Assembly: GCF_902859705.1 (NCBI RefSeq)
Contig: NZ_CADIJO010000003.1
Location: 310,001-374,000 of the forward strand
Direction: 5' to 3'
From: Achromobacter deleyi
Lineage (GTDB): Bacteria; Pseudomonadota; Gammaproteobacteria; Burkholderiales; Burkholderiaceae_B
DNA: 64,000 bases
Part shown: positions 33,701 to 43,926 of the stretch, in pieces
How the letters are laid out: every line of letters starts with the position of its first letter
Position numbering within the stretch: the first letter of the stretch is position 1
Notes under the pieces: model-generated
The model's database searches: none
Seen by the model: the letters and a program-made list of their open reading frames with translations, nothing else
What the model was told of the DNA's origin: nothing
Translations under genes and position numbers: made by a program

Positions 33701-34609
33701 ATGGCTTTGCCCTCCCGCGTCAAGATCGTCGAGGTTTCCCCCCGCGACGGCCTGCAGAATGAAAAAGAATTCGTGTCCACCGACATCAAGGTGGAACTGG
33801 TCAACCGCCTGGCCGCGGCCGGCTTTCCCAATGTCGAGGCGGCCTCGTTCGTGTCGCCCAAATGGGTGCCGCAAATGGCCGACGGCGCCGACGTCATGGC
33901 GCGCATCGAGCGCCGCCCCGGCACGATCTATTCGGTGCTGACGCCCAACATGAAGGGCTTCGAAGGCGCGCTGGCCGCCGGCGCAGACGAGATCGTCATT
34001 TTCGGTGCGGCGAGCGAAGCCTTCTCGCAAAAGAACATCAATTGCTCCATCGCCGAATCCATCGCGCGCTTCGAGCCCGTGGTGCAGGCCGCCCGCGAAG
34101 CCGGCATCCGCGTGCGCGGCAGCATCAGTTGCGCGCTGGGCTGTCCCTACCAGGGCGAAGTGCCGATCGACGCGGTGGTCGACGTGGCCCAGCGCTACCT
34201 GGCCATGCAGGTCGATGAAATCGACGTCGCCGACACCATCGGCGTGGGCACGCCGCAACGTGTGCGCGATGTGATGGCGGCGGTCACCCGCGTGGTGGAC
34301 CCGGCGCGCGTGTCGGGCCATTTCCACGACACCTACGGCCAGGCATTGGCCAACATCCTGGCATCGCTGGAAACCGGCATCTCGATCTTCCACGCGTCGG
34401 TGGCGGGCCTGGGCGGCTGCCCCTATGCCAAGGGCGCCACCGGCAACGTGGCCACCGAAGACGTGCTGTACATGCTGCGCGGCCTGGATATCGACACGGG
34501 CGTGGACTTCGACGCCGTGGTCGACATCGGCCAATGGATGTCGGCCAACCTGAACCGCAAGGGCTCCAGCCGGGCCGGCAACGCCATTGCCGCCAAGCGG
34601 GCCGCCTGA
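33701..34609 (+). CDS. Hydroxymethylglutaryl-CoA lyase
   Basis: A 302-residue TIM-barrel lyase of the HMGL family. SPRDGLQNE near the N-terminus, GHFHDTYGQALAN with metal ligands, and the signature loop GLGGCPYAKGATGN with the catalytic cysteine all match. It splits HMG-CoA into acetyl-CoA and acetoacetate, the last step of leucine degradation. No other leucine-degradation gene is adjacent. The ATG at 33701 follows AGGAAGAGAC, a good ribosome binding site, 74 bp after dprA. Confidence 0.93.
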   Translation: MALPSRVKIVEVSPRDGLQNEKEFVSTDIKVELVNRLAAAGFPNVEAASFVSPKWVPQMADGADVMARIERRPGTIYSVLTPNMKGFEGALAAGADEIVIFGAASEAFSQKNINCSIAESIARFEPVVQAAREAGIRVRGSISCALGCPYQGEVPIDAVVDVAQRYLAMQVDEIDVADTIGVGTPQRVRDVMAAVTRVVDPARVSGHFHDTYGQALANILASLETGISIFHASVAGLGGCPYAKGATGNVATEDVLYMLRGLDIDTGVDFDAVVDIGQWMSANLNRKGSSRAGNAIAAKRAA

Positions 34610-34705
34610 CGCGAAACCTCGTAGAATGGCTGCGCGCGTTTCGCGTGAGCGCCAGGACCGCCTGGCGCGCATCTTCTCGCAACGCTATCGGAATTCCGCA
34701 GCCGC

Positions 34706-35179
34706 ATGACGTCCCCCGTCTCCGCCCCTCCGCCCGAGGAACTTGCCGCCCTGCTGCGCGCCATCGGCCCCCTGCCCCTGTCGGGACAGGCATGGCCGGA
34801 CTGGGTCCGCATCCTGACCTGGGTCATCCTGGCCGTGCTGGGCGTGCAGGTCGTCACGACCGCCATCCGCGCCCCCGCGCAGCCATTCGACGCTGCGCTG
34901 GCCGTGGGCGTGGGACTGTGCTTCATCGGCCTGTTGTTCATCTCCTGGCACATGCAGACATCCATCACCACCATCGACGAACATGGCCTGCGCCAAAGCT
35001 GGTTCGCGCGCCGCGAGGTCGCCTGGGAAGACGTGCGCGGCGCGCGGTTCGTGCCGATGCTGTTTTCCAAGCGGCTGGTGGTGTTCACGCATAGCGGACG
35101 GCCCGTGATCTTCCAGGGCGGCACACGCGAACTGCGCAACGCATTCACCAAGATTGCCGAACTGTACCGGCGCAGTTGA
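34706..35179 (+). CDS. Small two-helix membrane protein with PH-like domain, function unknown
   Basis: A 157-residue protein with two predicted membrane helices (about 33-53 and 63-83). A C-terminal cytoplasmic domain (about 85-157) follows, beginning TSITTIDEHGLRQSWF and REVAWEDVRGARFV, a pattern typical of bacterial PH-like (YdbT/YcxB type) domains. I do not recognise a specific family. It stands between HMG-CoA lyase and the SWIM operon with gaps of 96 and 58 bp, so it could be a first member of that operon; this is uncertain. Confidence 0.65.
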   Translation: MTSPVSAPPPEELAALLRAIGPLPLSGQAWPDWVRILTWVILAVLGVQVVTTAIRAPAQPFDAALAVGVGLCFIGLLFISWHMQTSITTIDEHGLRQSWFARREVAWEDVRGARFVPMLFSKRLVVFTHSGRPVIFQGGTRELRNAFTKIAELYRRS

Positions 35180-35237
35180 GCCGCAAGCCCTCGCGACGGC
35201 AGAGGCCCGTCGCGCCCCTACCCAGGAGCCCTGACGC

Positions 35238-36629
35238 ATGACGGAGCTGGCCTATGCCTATCTTGCCCCCTCCGAATTCGCCCAACGGCAGGGCCAGGCC
35301 GACCTGAGCCTGGCCACCAGCGGCGGGCTTGCCCCGTCGGGCGCGGTGGCGCATCCCTTTTTCTTTTCCGGATTCGTGGCCCAGCCCGCCGTGGTGGCGC
35401 AAGCGCTGCTGATGCAGGCACGGGTGGCGCGCACGCGCTTCTATGTGCCGCCGAACACGCTGGCGGCGGTGCTGCGGGCGGCAGACCCGGTCGTGACGTC
35501 CACGCCCGAGGGCCTGCGCTTCGAGTCCTTCAGTGTGTGCTGCGGCGTGTACGCGCGCCTGGACGTGGACGCGGCGGCGCTGGACGCCACGCACTCGGCG
35601 CCGGGCGTCACCAACGTAGACGTGAATCCCCCGCTGCGCCAGGCGCTGGCCGGGCTGCGCGCGTCCGAACCCCTGCACCTGAACGTGGGCAACGATGCGC
35701 TGCGGGTGGCGACGCCAGCGGGCGAGATCGTCGAAGAGCAAGTCCCGCTGCCCACGCGCTGGCTCAAGGGGTTTGCCGAAACGCAGATGCTGTCGGCGGG
35801 CATGACGGCGCGTCACGAGCTCACCGGCGCCGCACTGCGCCAGTTCGTGCAGGCGCTGCCGCGCTCATCGGCGACCAAGACGGTGATGTGGGCAACCCAG
35901 GCCGCCCGTTCGCTGCGGCTGGCCACGCAGGCGACGCCCGGCGCGGTGTGCGTGGCGGGCCCAGAGCGGCTGCGGGTGCTGGAGCCACTGCTGCGCTACG
36001 CCACGGCGCTGCGCGCCTACGGGGCGGATGTAGCGGCGGGTGGCCAACCCCAGGCCAGCGCCTGGGTGCTGGAACTGCCCGGCGCACGGATCACGTTGGG
36101 GCTGAGCCCGGAGAAATCTCGCGGCTTCTCGGGCGAGGGTTCGGTACTGCATCTGATCGCGGGCGGCGATGCGAACGAGGACGCGGCATTCGTCTCGACG
36201 CTGCTGGCCTTCGAACCCCGCATCGATATTGCCCAATTGGCCGCGCGGGCCCTGCTGCCGCAGGCACAGATCGCGTCTGCGCTGGGCGTGCTGGCGTCGT
36301 CCGGCCAGGTGGGCTTCGATCTGGCGGCGGGCGCGTATTTCCATCGTCCGCTGCCGGTGCAGGCGGGCCTGCTCGACACGCTGCATCCGCGGCTGGCCGA
36401 TGCGCGCAAGCTGTTGACGGACGGCGCGGTACTGCCCGAGGGCGAGGGGCGGTATACGGTGCAGTCGGGGCCGCAGCGCTACCGCGTGGCGCTGGGCGTC
36501 GAACCGTCGCACGATCGCTGCACCTGCCCGTGGAACGCCAAATACCAAGGCGCGCGCGGCCCCTGCAAGCACACACTGGCTGTGCGCATGTTTCTCGATC
36601 CGCTGAACGCGCCTGGAGCCGACGCATGA
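35238..36629 (+). CDS. SWIM zinc-finger protein
   Basis: A 463-residue protein without signal peptide. Near its C-terminus the zinc ligands Cys428, Cys430, Cys443 and His445 form a CxCx12CxH SWIM motif (CTCPWNAK...GPCKHTLAV). Before it lies a large domain with alternating strands and helices that I cannot assign. SWIM fingers bind DNA or proteins. Related SWIM proteins stand next to MoxR/von Willebrand or HEAT-type genes in other bacteria (E. coli YehQ is an example from memory). The next gene starts within its stop codon (ATGA overlap), so the products are probably made together and may form a complex. Confidence 0.85.
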   Translation: MTELAYAYLAPSEFAQRQGQADLSLATSGGLAPSGAVAHPFFFSGFVAQPAVVAQALLMQARVARTRFYVPPNTLAAVLRAADPVVTSTPEGLRFESFSVCCGVYARLDVDAAALDATHSAPGVTNVDVNPPLRQALAGLRASEPLHLNVGNDALRVATPAGEIVEEQVPLPTRWLKGFAETQMLSAGMTARHELTGAALRQFVQALPRSSATKTVMWATQAARSLRLATQATPGAVCVAGPERLRVLEPLLRYATALRAYGADVAAGGQPQASAWVLELPGARITLGLSPEKSRGFSGEGSVLHLIAGGDANEDAAFVSTLLAFEPRIDIAQLAARALLPQAQIASALGVLASSGQVGFDLAAGAYFHRPLPVQAGLLDTLHPRLADARKLLTDGAVLPEGEGRYTVQSGPQRYRVALGVEPSHDRCTCPWNAKYQGARGPCKHTLAVRMFLDPLNAPGADA

Positions 36630-39202
36630 CCCTGAGCCTGACCGAACGCCGCGCGGCGCTGCGCGAGGCCGCTGGCGGCGACGCGACGGACGTCACCGCC
36701 ATTGCCCGCGCGCTGGCCGGCGCGAACGAAGAAGACCGCGCCGCGCTGGCCAAGACCTTGCCGCCATCGCGCCTGTTCAGCGCAGAGGGGCCAACGCCCA
36801 GGGCATGTTTCGTGTTGACCGCGCTGGGCAAGCCCAAGCTCGTGGCCGAGACCCTGGCGCCTGCGGATATGACGCGCAAGCAAGACTATGCCGCACGCCA
36901 TACCGTGATGGCGCCAGCCGTCATCGCGGCAGCGAGCGAACGGGACGCATCCTGGCGGGCCGCATTCGTCGAGCTGTTTGCGGAACAGTCCTGGTGGGCC
37001 GAACCTCTGGTCTGGCCCGTATGCCACGCGCTGGTTCGGCTGGATGACGAGGCGCCGCTGTCCCAGGCCTATCTTCGGTGCTTCGTGCAGCAGGTCAGCG
37101 CCATCGGTGCGGATGGGCAACGGGACGAAGACCATGGCAAGCTCATGGCCGCGCATCTGCAGGCGCACCCCGATTGGGTCGAACGCGAGTTCTGGGCCTT
37201 GTTCCGCGTCGATGGCATGGGCGCCGATTACCAGCTCATCGAGCGCACCGGCCTTGCCTGGGACGCCGCCATCCTGACGCTATGCCAGGCCAGCCCGGTG
37301 TTCCGGGAACGCCTGCTGGCCGAGTCATTGGACGCCTTGCTGCGAGACTTCTCGGCGAAAGTCATTGCCTGGTACTTGCGCGTGCATCGCTTGGCCGATC
37401 CGACCGCGCACGAAGTCGCGGCCAGGCAACACACGTATTTCTCGGTGCTCGCCACGGCGCCCAGCACGGCGGTAGGCCTGGCCCAGGACATGCTCAAGCG
37501 CGCCGCCGCACAACTGGACGTGGACGCGATGATCGAGGCCGCGCCCGCCGTCCTGACCCGTACGGAGAAGAAGCTGGTCAAGGCCCAGCTCGCGCTGCTT
37601 GCCGCGCTCAAGACGGATGCCGGGCAAAGTGATCGCATCTCGCAGATGCTCGGCGAAGCGCTGGAAGGCATGCCGTTGGACCTGGCGCCGCTGGCGCGCA
37701 AGCTCATGGTTGCGACAGACGAGATGCAACCCGCCGATGCAGAGGGCGAGGCTCGCACGAAAGAGGACGACGTCAGCCGCACAATCACGATACCGGCACC
37801 GCGCAGCACGTCGCTGCCGGACCTTCCCGAGCCTGCGCCCGACATCAGCAACGACGAGGCACTGCACGCCTTGATCGGGGCGCAGTTCGAGGGCGTCGGA
37901 CACGGCGCCGAGTTACCGCGCCTCTTCGACTACCTGGCCCGCCGTCCGCAGATTGCGCTGCCTGAGGCGCTGCAACACCGCGCCGCCGAAATCATCGCGT
38001 CGGTGTGGGATGAACACAATGCCTCGCCGCGGCGCCTTCTGGCCGCCGCGCTGCTGGGCCGGGACGACGTCAGTTTCAATGGCTATGCCCGGTATGTCGT
38101 GGCCAGCGCAGGCAAGCCGGACCCCGTGGGCGTGGTATTGCAGGAAAACACCTTCACCAGCAGCGGCTACGACGTCGAGACCGGAGATTGGACGGTCAAC
38201 GAAACCTGGACCTCGCGCTCGGGCTACCAATACCTTCCGACGCATTCGCCGCTGGCCCTGCTGGCGGGGGCTTTCCACGACCTGCGGTCGAGTCGGGCAC
38301 GGGGTGAACCCTTCGTAGCCCCGGCGCCCGTGCCGGCGCATCGCTTCGCCTGGCAGCGAATGGTTGCCACGCCGGGCGAAGGCACGTTCTCGCGCGACCT
38401 GGAGGTGTTGGGAGAGGGCCCCAAGCCGTTCTGGATGCCGACGGACACCGCCGCAGTGACCCACGCGTCCGCCTCGCCGGCCCTGGATGTCGCCGACGTA
38501 GCGGCCGAATTCACCTTCCGCGTCCAGGAGGCCCGGCAGCAGGACGGCTACGACCAGGTCGTGCAATGGACGGCCTGGCTGCTGCGGTTCAACCCCGACA
38601 CGCTGGCCGCGCATTTCCATCCGATGCTGTGCGCGGCGGTGCAGGTCATCAACGTGCGCGGCCTTGCACCGTTGCTGACGGCGCTGGGCGCGTCCCGGCA
38701 GGTGCCCGGTACGCCCGTGTACTCGGCCTTGGCCCTGGCGGCATCGGCGAAGATGTCCGAGCAGCGCGCCCAGGCCGCCGAGGCAATCGCACGCCTGGCC
38801 GACGCCGGCCTGCTCGACCCCGCGCCGTTCGCCGAGCAGATCGCGGCGCATCTGGCGCAGGGCTTCGCCTTGGCCGGACGGCTCGCGCAGACGCTGGCCG
38901 ACGCCGCGTCCATCAGCGCACTTGCCGGTTGCCGCGTACTGCAAACGCTGGCGGCGCTGCTGCCGCATCTGCTCGACGCCCAAGGCAAGCCGCTGGCCCA
39001 GGCGGTCAAGCTCATCGAACTTGCCGCCCGCCTGTCCAATGACTATGGCATGCCGGTGGCGCTGCCCGACGCGCTGGCCGCACGGCGCAACGGTGCGTCC
39101 GTGCTGGCAGTGACCTTGCGCAGCCTGGAAGCCGTCGCATCGCGGGCAACGCCGTTGGCCGAAACCGCCGCAGCCGCCGCGCGGCAGACTCAAGAGGGAT
39201 GA
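36626..39202 (+). CDS. Very large helical-repeat protein, DUF6493-like, SWIM operon
   Basis: An 858-residue, mostly alpha-helical protein with no signal peptide. Long alanine/leucine-rich helix pairs (for example MSEQRAQAAEAIARLADAG) suggest HEAT-like solenoids at both ends. The middle holds a more specific region including YDVETGDWTVNETWTSRSG and HSPLALLAGAFHDLRSSRA. It resembles DUF6493 proteins, which accompany SWIM proteins in other genomes as I recall; function unknown. The ATG overlaps the SWIM stop codon and the stop codon overlaps the next gene's start, so all three are translationally coupled. A short acidic stretch (about 370-415) may be a flexible linker. Confidence 0.7.
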   Translation: MTLSLTERRAALREAAGGDATDVTAIARALAGANEEDRAALAKTLPPSRLFSAEGPTPRACFVLTALGKPKLVAETLAPADMTRKQDYAARHTVMAPAVIAAASERDASWRAAFVELFAEQSWWAEPLVWPVCHALVRLDDEAPLSQAYLRCFVQQVSAIGADGQRDEDHGKLMAAHLQAHPDWVEREFWALFRVDGMGADYQLIERTGLAWDAAILTLCQASPVFRERLLAESLDALLRDFSAKVIAWYLRVHRLADPTAHEVAARQHTYFSVLATAPSTAVGLAQDMLKRAAAQLDVDAMIEAAPAVLTRTEKKLVKAQLALLAALKTDAGQSDRISQMLGEALEGMPLDLAPLARKLMVATDEMQPADAEGEARTKEDDVSRTITIPAPRSTSLPDLPEPAPDISNDEALHALIGAQFEGVGHGAELPRLFDYLARRPQIALPEALQHRAAEIIASVWDEHNASPRRLLAAALLGRDDVSFNGYARYVVASAGKPDPVGVVLQENTFTSSGYDVETGDWTVNETWTSRSGYQYLPTHSPLALLAGAFHDLRSSRARGEPFVAPAPVPAHRFAWQRMVATPGEGTFSRDLEVLGEGPKPFWMPTDTAAVTHASASPALDVADVAAEFTFRVQEARQQDGYDQVVQWTAWLLRFNPDTLAAHFHPMLCAAVQVINVRGLAPLLTALGASRQVPGTPVYSALALAASAKMSEQRAQAAEAIARLADAGLLDPAPFAEQIAAHLAQGFALAGRLAQTLADAASISALAGCRVLQTLAALLPHLLDAQGKPLAQAVKLIELAARLSNDYGMPVALPDALAARRNGASVLAVTLRSLEAVASRATPLAETAAAAARQTQEG

Positions 39203-41607
39203 CCACACGCATGACGCCCTACAAGAACCTCTGGGACTACTACCGCGACACCGCGCGGCTGATTCAAGATGGCGCGACCCTGCGCACCCTGTACGACGCC
39301 CTGCTTCAGGTACAGTCGGACGATATGCGCACAGTGGACGCGTCGCCCAAGCGGCTGCGTGAAATGACGCAAAGCTGGTCCCAGCGCCCGAATTTCCTGC
39401 CGATCCGCCTGAACGAACTGTTCAACGGCCTGCAGGTCGACCCGACGGATGACTACGTGCTGGCCCTGGTCGGCGGGCTGGGCGGACGCCACGAACAGGA
39501 AGTGCGCCTGTTCATGCTGCGCCACGACCACGCGCTGCGGGACAACGTGTTCTGGCGCGTCTTCGAGGTGGAGGGCGGCGGCGAGATCTCGTTGGCGAAC
39601 ATCGACAAGTTCTCGCGCGAGGAATTCAACTGGCACAACACGGTCGTGCTGCTGGCCAACGAAGGCACGCTGGACCGGCGCCGGGTGCTGCGCAGTTGCC
39701 TTGAAGCGCTGAACCGGGATTTCTCCGCCTATCGCGCCGGCTGGTACTCGCGCGTCTATGCCACGCTGGCCCCCACGCCCGACGAGGTGGCAGCCGACCA
39801 GCAACTGCTGCGGCTGTGCCTGGGCTCGTCGATCACTGCCACCGTGTCGCTGGCAGTCAAGCAGTTCGAGACGCTGCACAAGCACGACCTGCTCGACGCC
39901 ACGCCTTTCGTGGACGCTTGCGGCGGCGCATTCTCGGGGCCAAAGGCCGCGGCGCTGTCGGTGCTGCGCATTCTGGAAGCACTGGGCGCACAGGCACGGG
40001 TCGATTCGCAGGCCCTGGCGCAGGCGCTGGCCCTGGGTCTGGGGCATCCGCATGCCGACGTGCAACGGGCGGCGGTAAAGGCGCTGGTGAAGATGGGCCG
40101 GGTGGATCTGGCGCAACAGCAGCGCGACGCCCTGGCGCCAGCGGTGGCCGTCCTACTGCCGCAAGCCGAGGCTGCCGAGACCGAAGAACCGGTGGACAAA
40201 GGTCTTGCAGCAAGCGCCAGTGCCCCAGGCCTGTCGGGCACGCCATCCGATTTGCCATCACCCGCGCCCCTGAATCCCTGGACGGACGACGACGCCCAGG
40301 AACGCTATGCCGCGCTGCTGGAGGCGCCCGCCGACGCCCTGGAATTCGAGCTTGCACTGGCGTGGCTGGCAACGTCCCGGCAGGTGGCGGCGATGATCGC
40401 GCCCTTGGTCAAGCGCGCCCGCCGCCTGGCCGAGCGCGATAGACAGCACTACGCGGCCGCACTGCTGCTGGCGGCGCATGAACCTAAGGTCCCATTCCTG
40501 CCACTGCAGTATTGGCAGAACACCTCCACCAGCCTGGTCAACGGTGAGTGGGTGCAAGAACGCGAGGGCAAACGCCAGGCGCTGCCGAGCGCCGAGCAAT
40601 CCACCCTGCTGCCCAGCTTCATCACCCGCCTGCGCGAGGTGGCCGCGATCGTGCAGGGCCAGGCGTCGCGCCGCCCGCTGCTCGCCACGCCCACCGACAC
40701 GCAGGGTTGGGTCGATGCCGACGCCCTGCTGGCCCGCTTCGAGGCGGGCCGGGAAAGCGGCGCCCCGCTGCCGGTGGATCTCACCCAGGCATTGCTGCGC
40801 GTGCATCCCGAGCATCGGGCCCGGGCGGTCGAGGCGACCGGTGGCGCGTGGCCGCAGATCACCGACACCGTGCAGATCGAATGGCGCAGCCGCGGATCGA
40901 GCACCTTGAAGGCCGACGGCTCGCCGCAGTGGGTGTGGTGGAGTCCCGTGATCCATGCCGCGCCCGACGAAGCGCCTTCGGCCACGCAACCGGCGCTGAT
41001 TGCGTCGGGTCCGCTGCAATACAACGACTGGGGCGACGCCCACGCGCTGGTCTGCGCCGAACTCGGCCTGGCCAACCCCGCGTCGACCTTGCCGCTGGCC
41101 GCAGCCAGCATGGCGATCATGAACACGGCGGCAGGCGACGAGGCCGAGCATCGCGCCCCCACCGTGCTGCGCGTTCTTGCCGGGCATCCGGGCGCGTGGC
41201 ACGCGGAAACCGTCCAGCTGCTTGCCCTGGGCATGGCGGCCAAGCAGGCCGAGGTACGCGCGCAGGCCGTGGAAGCGTTTGCCGCCGCGATTCCGCACCG
41301 CGTGGATGCAACCGCTGCGGCGCAGGCCTACGCCGCCTGCGTGCCCGCGATCGTCCTGACCCGCTGGGCAACGTCCTTCACGGACGCGGCGACAATGGCG
41401 CCTGCGGCCGTCATCGCCGTGCTGGGCGGTCTGCTGCCACGCCTGGACCCCAAGACGCGCGGTATTGGCTCCCTGCTTACCGTGCTGCTGGATGAGTCGC
41501 TGCGCCACGCGCACCCCGTCCAGGCCGCAGACTTGCGCGGCTGGCTGGCGGGCTTTACTGGCACGTCCGCCGCCGCCAAAGCCGCCAAGGCGCTGCTGGC
41601 GTTGTAA
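39199..41607 (+). CDS. Second very large helical-repeat protein of the SWIM operon
   Basis: An 802-residue, alanine/leucine-rich helical protein that looks like a distant relative of the gene before it. The C-terminal half has HEAT-like helical pairs (AEVRAQAVEAFAAAIPHR; QALALGLGHPHADVQRAAVKAL). It also has a central strand-containing segment (NTSTSLVNGEWVQEREG; SSTLKADGSPQWVWWSP) in the same relative place. No catalytic motif, signal peptide or membrane segment is visible. It overlaps the upstream gene by four bases. Such paired solenoids are usually scaffolds; what they hold is unknown. Assignment to DUF6493 is by resemblance and context only. Confidence 0.65.
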   Translation: MTTRMTPYKNLWDYYRDTARLIQDGATLRTLYDALLQVQSDDMRTVDASPKRLREMTQSWSQRPNFLPIRLNELFNGLQVDPTDDYVLALVGGLGGRHEQEVRLFMLRHDHALRDNVFWRVFEVEGGGEISLANIDKFSREEFNWHNTVVLLANEGTLDRRRVLRSCLEALNRDFSAYRAGWYSRVYATLAPTPDEVAADQQLLRLCLGSSITATVSLAVKQFETLHKHDLLDATPFVDACGGAFSGPKAAALSVLRILEALGAQARVDSQALAQALALGLGHPHADVQRAAVKALVKMGRVDLAQQQRDALAPAVAVLLPQAEAAETEEPVDKGLAASASAPGLSGTPSDLPSPAPLNPWTDDDAQERYAALLEAPADALEFELALAWLATSRQVAAMIAPLVKRARRLAERDRQHYAAALLLAAHEPKVPFLPLQYWQNTSTSLVNGEWVQEREGKRQALPSAEQSTLLPSFITRLREVAAIVQGQASRRPLLATPTDTQGWVDADALLARFEAGRESGAPLPVDLTQALLRVHPEHRARAVEATGGAWPQITDTVQIEWRSRGSSTLKADGSPQWVWWSPVIHAAPDEAPSATQPALIASGPLQYNDWGDAHALVCAELGLANPASTLPLAAASMAIMNTAAGDEAEHRAPTVLRVLAGHPGAWHAETVQLLALGMAAKQAEVRAQAVEAFAAAIPHRVDATAAAQAYAACVPAIVLTRWATSFTDAATMAPAAVIAVLGGLLPRLDPKTRGIGSLLTVLLDESLRHAHPVQAADLRGWLAGFTGTSAAAKAAKALLAL

Positions 41608-41626
41608 ATCGATTAAGGAAACTTGC

Positions 41627-42208
41627 ATGACCCAGACCGCCGAACAGTTTCACCAACGCATGTGGGAAATCCTGGAGCCCGTGGACACCCAGTTCTTCGA
41701 GGTCGTCGCCGCGCCCGCCCCCGACGCAGAAGCGATCGGGGCGCTTGAAGCCGCGTTGGGCTTTGCGCTGCCGGCAGCGTTTGCCGCCTTCTGCCAGCGC
41801 ACCAACGGCTTGTGCGTGATGGCGCGCGAAGCTGTCTGGCCACACGCGAAAGAGTTCGAGGTCGGCCCCGCGTGGACGTTCTGGCGCGGCCTGGTGCTGT
41901 TGGGCATCGACACCCCGGACTTGCCCGAATGGGCCAGCATCTCGGCGCAGCAGCGCCGGCTGGCTGAGGCCGGTCTGCCCGGCATCCTGCCCCTGCTGAA
42001 AATCGTGGGCGATGGCGGCCGGATCTGGGGCGTGGATCAGACAGGGACCGTGGTGGTGATCGATGACTTGACCGATCCGCAGCCGCTGGACGGCGACTTT
42101 ACCGACCTCTACGCCGAGCAGATTGCCGACCTGATGCAGCGCCAGCAGGACATGGCGCAGCGGCTGGCCGAACGCGCAACGCGCAAGCCAGGCAAGCTGC
42201 CAGGGTAA
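41627..42208 (+). CDS. SUKH (SMI1/KNR4) family protein
   Basis: A 193-residue protein with the SUKH core. The amphipathic start EAIGALEAALGFALPAAFAAFCQRTNG matches the family helix-loop (ALxxxLGxxLPxxFxxFxxxxNG). Later segments WRGLVLLG and ILPLLKIVGDGGRIWGVD fit the beta sheet that follows. SUKH proteins often serve as immunity proteins against polymorphic toxins, but many are general adaptors. No toxin gene is next to it here. It starts 19 bp after the second helical gene with AAGGAAA as ribosome binding site, so it belongs to the same operon. Confidence 0.75.
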   Translation: MTQTAEQFHQRMWEILEPVDTQFFEVVAAPAPDAEAIGALEAALGFALPAAFAAFCQRTNGLCVMAREAVWPHAKEFEVGPAWTFWRGLVLLGIDTPDLPEWASISAQQRRLAEAGLPGILPLLKIVGDGGRIWGVDQTGTVVVIDDLTDPQPLDGDFTDLYAEQIADLMQRQQDMAQRLAERATRKPGKLPG

Positions 42209-42272
42209 AACGCAGCCGCACGCTGGCCGATCCCTGACGTCATCCATCACATCCAGACACCCAAGACAGGCA

Positions 42273-42908
42273 ATGATCCGTTTACCGCTCAAGACCGCCA
42301 CCCTGATCGCAGGCATCGCGATGACGCTGGCCTGCCAGGGGCAAGCGCCCGCGCAGGCACCCGCATCGGAATCCCCCCCATCGCAGCCGCCCGTCGTCGG
42401 CGCCTGGCGCAAGGTGTCCGATGCCCAGCTCAATCAGCAATACCGCTACTCGATGCTGCCCGCTGTGGCGGCTGCGGGCAGCCGATGGGCCGCCTACGAC
42501 CCCAAGGCCGGCAAGACCGTGTGCTGCCTGGTCGTGGTCGGGCCTGAGATCAGCGAGGCCGAGCTGGACACCACCTACAACATTCCGGGCCCGTGGATCA
42601 CCGATCTGGTGAACGGCTGGAACCTGGACGCCGCGCCATATCGGCCACACGTGCAGTTGCTGCGCGCGGAAGGCGCACTGGTCGATCACGAATTCTCGGA
42701 GATGGCCGACGAACTGGGCGGCCTGCTGCTGCCCGCCCAGGCCCAGGCCGTCGCGCCGAATACGCTGCAGCTGGACGGCAAGCGTTACACCGTAGAGCGC
42801 AAGGAAGAGCCGCTTGCCAGCGACGACGGCGTGGTGCACACCTACGCCCTGCGGCCCGCCCAGGGCGGCAAGCCCTTGGCGGTCGAGGTTCCCTACGGGA
42901 TTTACTAG
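42273..42908 (+). CDS. Putative lipoprotein of unknown function
   Basis: A 211-residue protein with a lipoprotein signal: hydrophobic core LIAGIAMT followed by the lipobox TLAC, with Cys21 as the lipidation site. A proline-rich linker (about 22-42) precedes a domain I do not recognise, with a CC pair near residues 88-89 and a tryptophan-containing region PGPWITDLVNGWNLD. It lies 64 bp after the SUKH gene on the same strand and may be the last gene of that operon. Its stop codon is one base from the stop of the convergent binding-protein gene. Confidence 0.7.
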   Translation: MIRLPLKTATLIAGIAMTLACQGQAPAQAPASESPPSQPPVVGAWRKVSDAQLNQQYRYSMLPAVAAAGSRWAAYDPKAGKTVCCLVVVGPEISEAELDTTYNIPGPWITDLVNGWNLDAAPYRPHVQLLRAEGALVDHEFSEMADELGGLLLPAQAQAVAPNTLQLDGKRYTVERKEEPLASDDGVVHTYALRPAQGGKPLAVEVPYGIY

Positions 42909-42909
42909 A

Positions 42910-43926
42910 TCAGCGGATCGGCAGCGCGTACATCAGGCCGCCCTGCGTCCATTGCGCATTCAGGCCGCGCTTGATCTTGAGCGGGCTGCCCTGGCCGACG
43001 TTGCGCTCGAAGCTTTCGCCGTAATTGCCCACCTGCTTGACGATATTGTAGGCCCACTTTTCGTCCAGCCCCAGGTTGGCGCCGCCGCCGGGCGTGACGC
43101 CCAGGATGCGCTTGATGTTGGGGTTGGCGCTCTTGGCCTGTTCGTCGACGTTCTTGGACGTGACGCCGTATTCCTCGGCTTCGATCATGGCCGACAACGA
43201 CCAGCGCACAATGTTCAGCCAGGCGTCGTCGCCCTGGCGCACGAACGGGCCCAGCGGCTCTTTCGAGATGATCTCGGGCAGCACGACGTAATCGTCAGGA
43301 TTCTGCAGCTTGGAAATGCGGATGGAAGCCAGGCCCGAGGCGTCGGTGGAGAACACGTCGCAACGACCGGCCGCGAACGCGTTGACCACTTCGTTGAAGG
43401 TCTCGATCACGACCGGTTTGTACGTCACGTTGTTGGCGCGCGCCCAGTCAGCCAGCGTGTTTTCGTTGGACGTGCCGGTTTGCAGGCAGATCGTGGCGCC
43501 GTTGATTTCCTTGGCGCTCTTGACGCCCAGCGACTTGGGCACCAGGAAGCCCTGGCCGTCATAGAAATTGATGCCGGCATGGATGATGCCCAGCGCGGTG
43601 TCGCGCTGCTGCGTCACGGTGGTGTTGCGCGTCAGGACGTCGACTTCGCCGGACTGCAGCGCGGTGAAACGCTGCTGCGAATTGAGCGGCACCACCTTGA
43701 TTTTGTCGGCGTCGCCGAACACGGCCGCGGCGATCGCCCGGCACAGGTCTACGTCCAGCCCTTGCCACTTGCCTTGCGCGTCGGGTGCGGAAAAGCCCGC
43801 AAAACCCGTGGTGGTGCCGCAGGCCACCGCCCCGCGCTGGCGCACGACGTCCAGCGTCGCCGCCTGTGCACCCTGTACCGCTGCCAACAGCAGCGCCGCG
43901 CCCACCAACCCTTTAGCAATATTCAT
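42910..43926 (-). CDS. AapJ/BztA-type general L-amino acid-binding protein
   Basis: A 338-residue periplasmic binding protein of the AapJ family. A signal peptide (about 1-22, ending AQA) precedes TLDVVRQRGAVACGTTTGFAGFS, followed by GLDVDLCRAIAAAVFGD and PLNSQQRFTALQSGEVDVL. AapJ proteins deliver many L-amino acids to an ABC importer; no permease or ATPase gene is adjacent, so it is an orphan here. The start at MNIAKG is supported by AGGAATCCAGG upstream. Its stop codon lies one base from the end of the convergent lipoprotein gene, with no terminator between. Confidence 0.9.
   Translation of the reverse strand: MNIAKGLVGAALLLAAVQGAQAATLDVVRQRGAVACGTTTGFAGFSAPDAQGKWQGLDVDLCRAIAAAVFGDADKIKVVPLNSQQRFTALQSGEVDVLTRNTTVTQQRDTALGIIHAGINFYDGQGFLVPKSLGVKSAKEINGATICLQTGTSNENTLADWARANNVTYKPVVIETFNEVVNAFAAGRCDVFSTDASGLASIRISKLQNPDDYVVLPEIISKEPLGPFVRQGDDAWLNIVRWSLSAMIEAEEYGVTSKNVDEQAKSANPNIKRILGVTPGGGANLGLDEKWAYNIVKQVGNYGESFERNVGQGSPLKIKRGLNAQWTQGGLMYALPIR

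Follow-up and report, generated by a model that had tools for sequence, protein, structure and literature searches.

A mobile SWIM–DUF6493 gene pair inserted in Achromobacter deleyi, with apparent kinship to type XIII retrons and a predicted sliding-clamp fold

The subject of this report is a block of five genes in Achromobacter deleyi, located in a stretch of 64,000 nucleotides (contig NZ_CADIJO010000003.1, positions 310,001 to 374,000) that, taken as a whole, will be called the window. At the core of the block are a gene for a protein with a SWIM zinc finger and two genes for large proteins of the family DUF6493, here named A and B, followed by genes for a SUKH protein and a putative lipoprotein. 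The features are given below in positions of the window, the names of the last two in the list being readings from the sequence.

35238..36629, forward strand: SWIM protein, 463 residues, with a predicted clamp-fold domain, a winged helix and a SWIM zinc finger
35361..36119, forward strand: SWIM residues 42-294, predicted two-domain PCNA-type sliding-clamp fold
36147..36347, forward strand: SWIM residues about 304-370, winged helix, from Pfam matches and the secondary structure of the model
36519..36572, forward strand: SWIM zinc finger C428-x-C430-x12-C443-x-H445, invariant in 46 sequences
36626..39202, forward strand: DUF6493 protein A, a putative solenoid of 858 residues, DUF6493 plus DUF7825, with an ATGA overlap with the SWIM gene
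39199..41607, forward strand: DUF6493 solenoid protein B, 802 residues, ARM/HEAT-type model in two halves
41627..42208, forward strand: SUKH (SMI1_KNR4) protein, 193 residues, optional accessory
42273..42908, forward strand: putative lipoprotein, 211 residues, optional accessory
35180..42907, forward strand: inserted block, between the 3' end of the bPH-like gene and the 3' end of the convergent ABC-transporter-like gene
34706-35179: bPH-like upstream gene, with a weak bacterial PH match, ending at 35179
42910-43926, minus strand, convergent: ABC-transporter substrate-binding-like gene
neighbour of the upstream bPH-like gene: HMG-CoA-lyase-like gene

The gene coordinates, the two ATGA overlaps (36626-36629 between SWIM and A, 39199-39202 between A and B) and the 19-bp gap ahead of the SUKH gene (41608-41626) are exactly those of a preliminary description of this DNA, and all five genes were recovered by a codon-usage gene caller that had been trained partly on SWIM, A and B. 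The same description had recognized a CxCx12CxH SWIM motif, a relationship between the proteins of 858 and 802 residues, and a SUKH-type core, and each of these stands. C428, C430, C443 and H445 are invariant across 46 aligned homologues; the window protein itself scores below the curated cut-off of the Pfam SWIM model (E 0.0026, 17.7 bits, cut-off 19.6), and this model matches 46 of the 46 homologues at E<=10, the best at 3.7e-7. A and B share 35% identity over 132 residues, both match DUF6493 (PF20103; E 2.5e-15 and 1.2e-18, 56.9 and 67.8 bits, cut-off 25), and they are paralogues. The SUKH protein matches SMI1_KNR4 just over the cut-off (E 1.2e-5). Regarding the lipoprotein gene, its frame holds and a lipobox-like LAC can be read by eye, and searches of Pfam, NCBIfam and PADLOC matched it to no family; the NCBIfam search of the cassette proteins as a whole gave nothing useful. 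The cassette genes look functional because their pairwise ratios of nonsynonymous to synonymous substitution (dN/dS) among Achromobacter copies are low, i.e., 0.10-0.15 for SWIM, 0.16-0.27 for the 858-residue protein, 0.14-0.32 for the 802-residue protein and 0.14-0.18 for SUKH. Their composition is unremarkable, with a GC content at third codon positions of 0.83-0.85 versus 0.86-0.88 in four neighbour genes.

The block has been inserted between two conserved genes. With the upstream bPH-like gene and its HMG-CoA-lyase-like neighbour as DNA query, 43 of 43 Achromobacter genomes matched, and in all 29 relative loci compared (L109-L137, from 29 genomes) the site is empty: the flanking genes lie 19-357 bp apart, and blastn found none of 35180-42907 between them. 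The five genes therefore fill 35180-42907 with no gene broken, and one of the 29 genomes with an empty site (G029) carries the module elsewhere. Between the flanking genes, 7 of 13 relatives inspected have a hairpin bordered by runs of A and T, which is absent from the window, where the 58 bp from the upstream stop codon to the SWIM start hold a different, GC-rich inverted repeat. No terminal inverted repeats join the ends of the insert among the 25 longest of 149 repeat pairs. A separate observation concerns the loci L019, L020, L022 and L023, which differ from one another and have, 100-200 bp 5' of the SWIM gene, a stretch that is similar by eye and contains the imperfect inverted repeat CCAATGA...TCATTGG; this repeat was not seen in the window copy.

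The SWIM gene is present in 6 of the 43 Achromobacter genomes, a count that comes from a search of 101 genomes with 7 matches, one of them to a retron from another family, and in which the size of the genus is taken from the flank query. When positions 24-56 kb of the window were compared by blastn with the other five Achromobacter copies, the module alone matched and the flanks never did; two of these five (L022, L023) have like flanking genes. In Streptomyces, 39 of 101 genomes have the SWIM gene, one of them by a weak match of 56 residues, and this sporadic occurrence fits defence genes, but it fits other accessory traits equally well. The closest named SWIM copies are those of A. kerstersii, A. 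anxifer and A. animicus. On a Diaphorobacter plasmid, SWIM, A and B come immediately behind an integrase gene; a toxin-antitoxin pair lies 2-3 kb upstream, and the annotation shows no SUKH gene. In the SWIM tree, the betaproteobacterial proteins fall in a fully supported clade with those of Gordonia, Corynebacterium, Nocardioides, Paeniglutamicibacter and Propionibacteriaceae, a position that suggests transfer from Actinomycetota; the support for grouping the nine betaproteobacterial rows is 91/81, which is under the starred level of the tool.

The SWIM gene and its solenoid genes are one conserved unit, linked across phyla. At least 571 confirmed relatives emerged when 84,980 species genomes were scanned with the SWIM alignment, and the best 80 loci were kept; these include three Achromobacter copies, the same as L019, L021 and L022. 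A DUF6493 gene adjoins SWIM in 78 of the 80, and the two misses are L094, which ends 84 bp past the SWIM frame, and L038, a truncated SWIM gene at a contig end. In 67 loci the partner follows SWIM, in 7 the two genes diverge, in 3 the partner precedes SWIM on the same strand and in 1 they converge; thus the link survives rearrangement. When the neighbours in the 80 loci were clustered, SWIM was found in 79 and DUF6493 in 77, followed by four families with 21 loci each, where the loci listed are from Streptomyces or Kitasatospora except for one from Cellulosimicrobium. With no neighbour family beyond SWIM and DUF6493 above 21 of 80, the conserved four-gene neighbourhood that the preliminary description had proposed to look for across genomes is not seen.

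The converse test leads to the same pair. In 296 genomes of the class around Streptomyces, DUF6493 occurs at nine places in eight genomes, and eight of the nine are beside SWIM; the remaining one is an additional copy, whose genome has a SWIM–DUF6493 pair elsewhere. Adjacency in the eight was established by hidden Markov models (HMMs) on fetched DNA in six and by coordinates from the SWIM survey in two, and three of the eight genomes (G369, G811, G830) were already known as SWIM carriers. The family is rare, with one carrier among 300 genomes from the order and two among 398 from the phylum (the window genome counted in both), and the Pfam model is insensitive, having missed 3 of 20 genomes known to have the pair. 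More than one DUF6493 match occurs in 14 of the 80 loci, some of them frame-split genes. In 31 loci, SWIM proteins are more alike than their DUF6493 partners in 465 of 465 pairs (mean identity 0.57 vs 0.29), and the pairwise identities of the two correlate with r 0.82, from which it follows that SWIM and DUF6493 share their history and that the solenoid is the less conserved of the two. A large array was observed in Rothia aeria (L039; L104, L105, G363:C1:1596001-1630000; L106, L107), where SWIM is followed by about nine tandem DUF6493 genes over some 23 kb; many of these genes and SWIM itself are frame-shifted, through real decay or sequencing error, and the species also has a second array of about three DUF6493 genes and a further copy elsewhere in the genome.

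The remaining two genes are accessory and lie outside this conserved core. Among the Achromobacter cassettes, the order is SWIM-A-B-SUKH-lipoprotein in the window and L020, SWIM-A-B-SUKH in L021, SWIM-A-B in L022 and L023, and SWIM-A in L019. The SUKH gene is found in 13 of 43 Achromobacter genomes, 10 of which lack SWIM, and SWIM occurs without it in 3. It stands directly after the cassette in 3 of the 3 genomes that have both, which is above chance and suggests that cassette and SUKH travel or insert together. A phmmer search with the window SUKH protein, from which distant SUKH proteins escape, found a relative in only 1 of the 80 SWIM loci (L025, A. anxifer), nor does SMI1_KNR4 appear in the list of Pfam families that at least two of 119 near neighbours match. 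A gene for a protein of 338-342 residues, or a piece of it, occurs in 10 of 11 SUKH loci outside the window (two of them in SWIM carriers), and the lipoprotein in three; in the loci without SWIM (L151-L153, L155-L159) the SUKH gene is accompanied by the gene for this membrane-like protein, whole or in part, and L156 and L158 have the lipoprotein gene as well. The SUKH protein is perhaps immunity-like. Other small families observed near the module or a lone DUF6493 are DUF4303 (Arachnia), DUF4304 (Hymenobacter), SMI1/KNR4 (Streptomyces cadmiisoli) and DUF6138 (Comamonas), in loci L034, L143, L144, L028 and L029. The operon of four or five genes was accordingly rejected as the unit, and of the single system previously proposed the SWIM–DUF6493 part holds while the four-gene set does not; in place of four genes acting as one system, we see a mobile module of two.

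The SWIM protein has a homologue among the components of a retron. It matches the PADLOC model SWIM_XIII with E 4.5e-49 over residues 81-452. The labels RT_XIII, SWIM_XIII and WGR_XIII/HEAT-ARM_XIII we take to denote retron type XIII, because a locus with HEAT, SWIM and reverse transcriptase (RT) genes that match these models was found in a genome of the same order (E 2.4e-236 for WGR_XIII, the HEAT/WGR protein, 5.5e-215 for SWIM_XIII and 2.6e-189 for RT_XIII). The order HEAT-SWIM-RT occurs in five retron-type loci, i.e., this one, three more genomes and a Methylobacterium plasmid, all called from their genes alone. Aligning the profile of the 46 RT-less SWIM proteins with that of four from retrons by hhalign gave a probability of 99.9 and E 5.8e-33 over 364 columns, from residue 82 to 454. 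No RT was detected: the whole genome has 0 matches to PF00078 at E<=0.001, and the retron RT and HEAT queries found 0 of the 80 related loci. In addition, the Rfam models, as distinct from the PADLOC RNA models, gave no RNA match at E<=1 in 34500-43500, and neither DUF6493 protein matches any PADLOC family at E<=1. Membership in the retron type was rejected, since no RT was detected and the solenoid is not detectably related to the retron HEAT protein; by these profile comparisons the module looks like an RT-less relative of the type XIII accessory pair, with a homologous SWIM protein and an analogous solenoid. We know of no mechanism for that accessory pair, and the type itself was reportedly first described by Mestre et al. 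in 2020. A type XIII retron has also been called by PADLOC in Variovorax, according to PMC11953036. The SWIM_XIII model was also seen to match in Methanosarcina acetivorans, a control genome, where the SWIM family may reach into the archaea or the finger alone may be matched.

The structure predicted for the SWIM protein is the most valuable new point, and an unexpected one. The AlphaFold2 model (predicted local distance difference test, pLDDT, 85.6; predicted template modelling score, pTM, 0.84) was compared with the PDB by Foldseek, where the best match is PCNA (E 3.5e-10; 483 matches at E<=0.001) and the best 50 rows are all PCNA, PCNA with its loader, or the 9-1-1 clamp. The best 50 rows of VIA-align have Z 16.9-18.1 and root-mean-square deviations of 3.1-4.2 over 210-226 residues, most of them spanning residues 42 to 292-294, the top alignment having Z 18.1 and a deviation of 3.3 over 213 residues; in a viral structure library the named best rows are mostly PCNA and DnaN clamps. 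Residues 42-294 are therefore predicted to adopt the two-domain fold of a PCNA sliding clamp, and each of the putative pore helices has a conserved arginine within or beside it (R67, R134, R174, R244). The winged helix that follows is supported by sequence, since among the 46 homologues, at E<=10, DprA_WH matches 27 (best 2.2e-6) and the PafC HTH matches 17 (best 0.0015).

Regarding the solenoids, the model of B (pLDDT 86.8) consists of ARM/HEAT-type helical repeats in two halves joined by a variable linker at about residues 321-350. Its fold matches are generic ARM/HEAT proteins with a best Z of 11.3, a range that is uninformative for repeat proteins. A search for a hidden enzyme in B produced nothing beyond these generic matches, and an unlisted fold could still exist. 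The two proteins had been described as alpha-helical solenoids, which the helical-repeat model bears out for B. What is predicted, then, is a clamp, a winged helix and a finger in one chain, with an ARM/HEAT partner.

With a probability of about one half, we read the module as a mobile conflict module of two components, a clamp-SWIM protein and HEAT-type partners. The first component would be the SWIM protein with its PCNA-like clamp, winged helix and SWIM zinc finger, and the second one or more DUF6493 ARM/HEAT solenoids. The SWIM protein would bind or encircle DNA at replication or invader structures, and the faster-evolving solenoids would keep it silent and provide recognition; a trigger, most likely the replication of a phage or plasmid, would release the clamp-SWIM protein onto the DNA, where, once locked, it may block or mark replication. 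In type XIII retrons the RT and its multicopy single-stranded DNA (msDNA) would be an added sensor, without which the solenoids of the cassette would act. Since no catalytic domain was found in the cassette proteins, a stoichiometric block, by a decoy or a locked clamp, would be the most likely mechanism within the immune reading. We infer an antiphage function, in a defence-island context that is weak: the only clear defence neighbourhood seen is that of L030, a betaproteobacterial copy beside a type IIG restriction–modification enzyme and a PDC-S05 gene. Of the roles formerly suggested, i.e., conflict, stress or quality control, the homology with the SWIM protein of retron XIII makes conflict plausible, and quality control of the yeh type is disfavoured. 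Much more doubtful is a specific version, that the chain of clamp, winged helix and SWIM is an immune DNA ring held under HEAT solenoids, and locked or misloaded at invader or stalled forks, either alone or wired to a retron as in type XIII; if true, clamp-based immunity would be a new mechanism and would explain the effector of type XIII retrons.

Several results weigh against a mobile conflict module of this kind. The clamp fold is a single prediction, the 19 Pfam families matched by the 46 members at E<=10 include no PCNA or DnaN family, and there is no clamp among the 3 PDB sequence matches; a clamp of only about 10% identity is, as expected, invisible to such searches. The clamp region is overall not strongly basic, and the retron profile alignment, beginning at residue 82, leaves the first 40 clamp residues uncovered. 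The DUF6493 solenoid and the retron HEAT protein have no homology detectable by hhalign (probability 0.1). As no catalytic domain was found, a killing step is also missing. The pair is not without exceptions: in the DNA read, DUF6493 occurs without SWIM in L171, from a Pseudomonadota genome, and in L143, a Hymenobacter plasmid, SWIM occurs without DUF6493 in L016, and on a Streptomyces plasmid both are present and far apart. No SWIM match was found in the phage records or viral contigs searched. Among near neighbours, 119 of 151 were scanned, all from non-Streptomyces loci, as the Streptomyces loci had been excluded beforehand; they match 51 PADLOC families, the 25 families listed having one neighbour each, with no recurrent defence family seen, and the neighbours of the module are mostly ordinary genes. 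Given the recurring neighbours, inheritance in Streptomyces may be stable. Finally, the whole-gene dN/dS values indicate purifying selection, and at this level no diversifying selection is seen on the solenoids, omega being <0.33 in every pair.

Many of these points are what one would meet if the module served its host, as a replication or repair accessory that has nothing to do with immunity: an additional clamp-like factor, for processivity or checkpoint control, which has regulators of the HEAT type and is sporadically gained and lost. The predicted clamp fold and winged helix suit such a role, as do the ordinary neighbours with few PADLOC matches, the neighbours recurring in 21 loci and the purifying selection; moreover, the weak fold matches of B include FANCD2 and condensin, which are HEAT solenoids whose roles concern DNA. 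We consider this explanation possible but rather unlikely, because the SWIM gene is confined to 6 of 43 genomes in Achromobacter and 39 of 101 in Streptomyces, the cassette sits at differing sites, and a SWIM homologue is part of a retron by the PADLOC models.

An improbable explanation is a polymorphic-toxin locus for interbacterial competition, in which the SUKH protein would be the immunity protein and the large proteins the toxin side. SUKH proteins are described in PMC3482391 as the immunity proteins found with the greatest variety of toxins, genes for SUKH, DUF4303, DUF4304 or SMI1/KNR4 lie near the module or a lone DUF6493 in a few loci, and SUKH adjoins the SWIM cassette in all three Achromobacter genomes with both. 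This adjacency has to be set against a SUKH relative in a single SWIM locus of 80, in a search that reaches close relatives only, ten genomes with SUKH and no SWIM, the lack of a second SMI1_KNR4 match among the 119 neighbours, and Pfam matches for the SWIM and DUF6493 proteins that include no toxin domain. Even less probable is a type XIII retron in decay, left without its RT and with only a remnant function: the SWIM homology would agree with it, but the at least 571 relatives and strong conservation speak for a lineage of its own, the RT and HEAT queries find nothing in 80 loci, the HEAT family is a different one, and the four retron rows stand on a long branch apart in the SWIM tree, so that descent could run either way. 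The derivation from a MoxR/VWA quality-control system of the yeh type, minimal or derived, is the least probable of all, for the likeness of a SWIM finger protein beside large uncharacterized proteins is outweighed by an alignment with YehQ over the finger only (probability 0.8), by relatives of YehL, YehM, YehP and YehQ in 0 of 80 loci (phmmer, E<1e-4), and by a SWIM_XIII model that does not match YehQ.

Should a conflict module be the right reading, sliding-clamp architecture would serve bacterial conflict systems, and the SWIM family and DUF6493, neither with an assigned function, would acquire a shared function that can be tested, in Streptomyces and many further genomes. The RT-free family isolates the SWIM protein that is homologous to that of the retron and predicts its fold, which offers a direct structural hypothesis for type XIII. 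No paper on DUF6493 was found in the open-licence literature, and among the matches listed there, in titles and the starts of abstracts, neither the SWIM–DUF6493 pair nor the predicted clamp fold of SWIM is described; the available parts of PMC7159879 and PMC12548924 make no mention of SWIM and of type XIII, respectively. The insertion, the kinship with retron XIII and the predicted clamp fold are new with respect to the preliminary description, which had been drawn from the letters alone.

Compared with known systems, the cassette shares with the SUKH or SMI1-KNR4 immunity proteins a SUKH-1 domain in one of its products, which here belongs to an optional neighbour and not to the conserved core. 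With the E. coli locus yehL-yehM-yehP-yehQ, it shares the presence of a SWIM finger protein. The absence of MoxR and VWA genes from the window had been noted earlier, and single-sequence phmmer searches with YehL (MoxR), YehM (DUF5682) and YehP (VWA) at E<1e-4 found no relative there; a minimal version of that locus, as once suggested, was rejected, as the finger is the sole similarity to YehQ and lies near its N-terminus (residues 56-88 of 614), whereas that of the cassette protein is near the C-terminus. The PCNA and DnaN sliding clamps have about 10% identity and no sequence-profile match with the SWIM protein, whose predicted clamp continues into a winged helix and the SWIM finger, and they resemble it in the predicted two-domain fold over residues 42-294, with Z about 18. 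From retron type XIII, the cassette differs in having no detectable RT in the genome or the 80 loci, no Rfam RNA match, and a DUF6493 solenoid that is not detectably related to WGR_XIII; what the two have in common is a SWIM protein that is homologous over residues 82-454, including most of the predicted clamp region, the winged helix and the finger, and that is partnered in both with a large HEAT-type protein.

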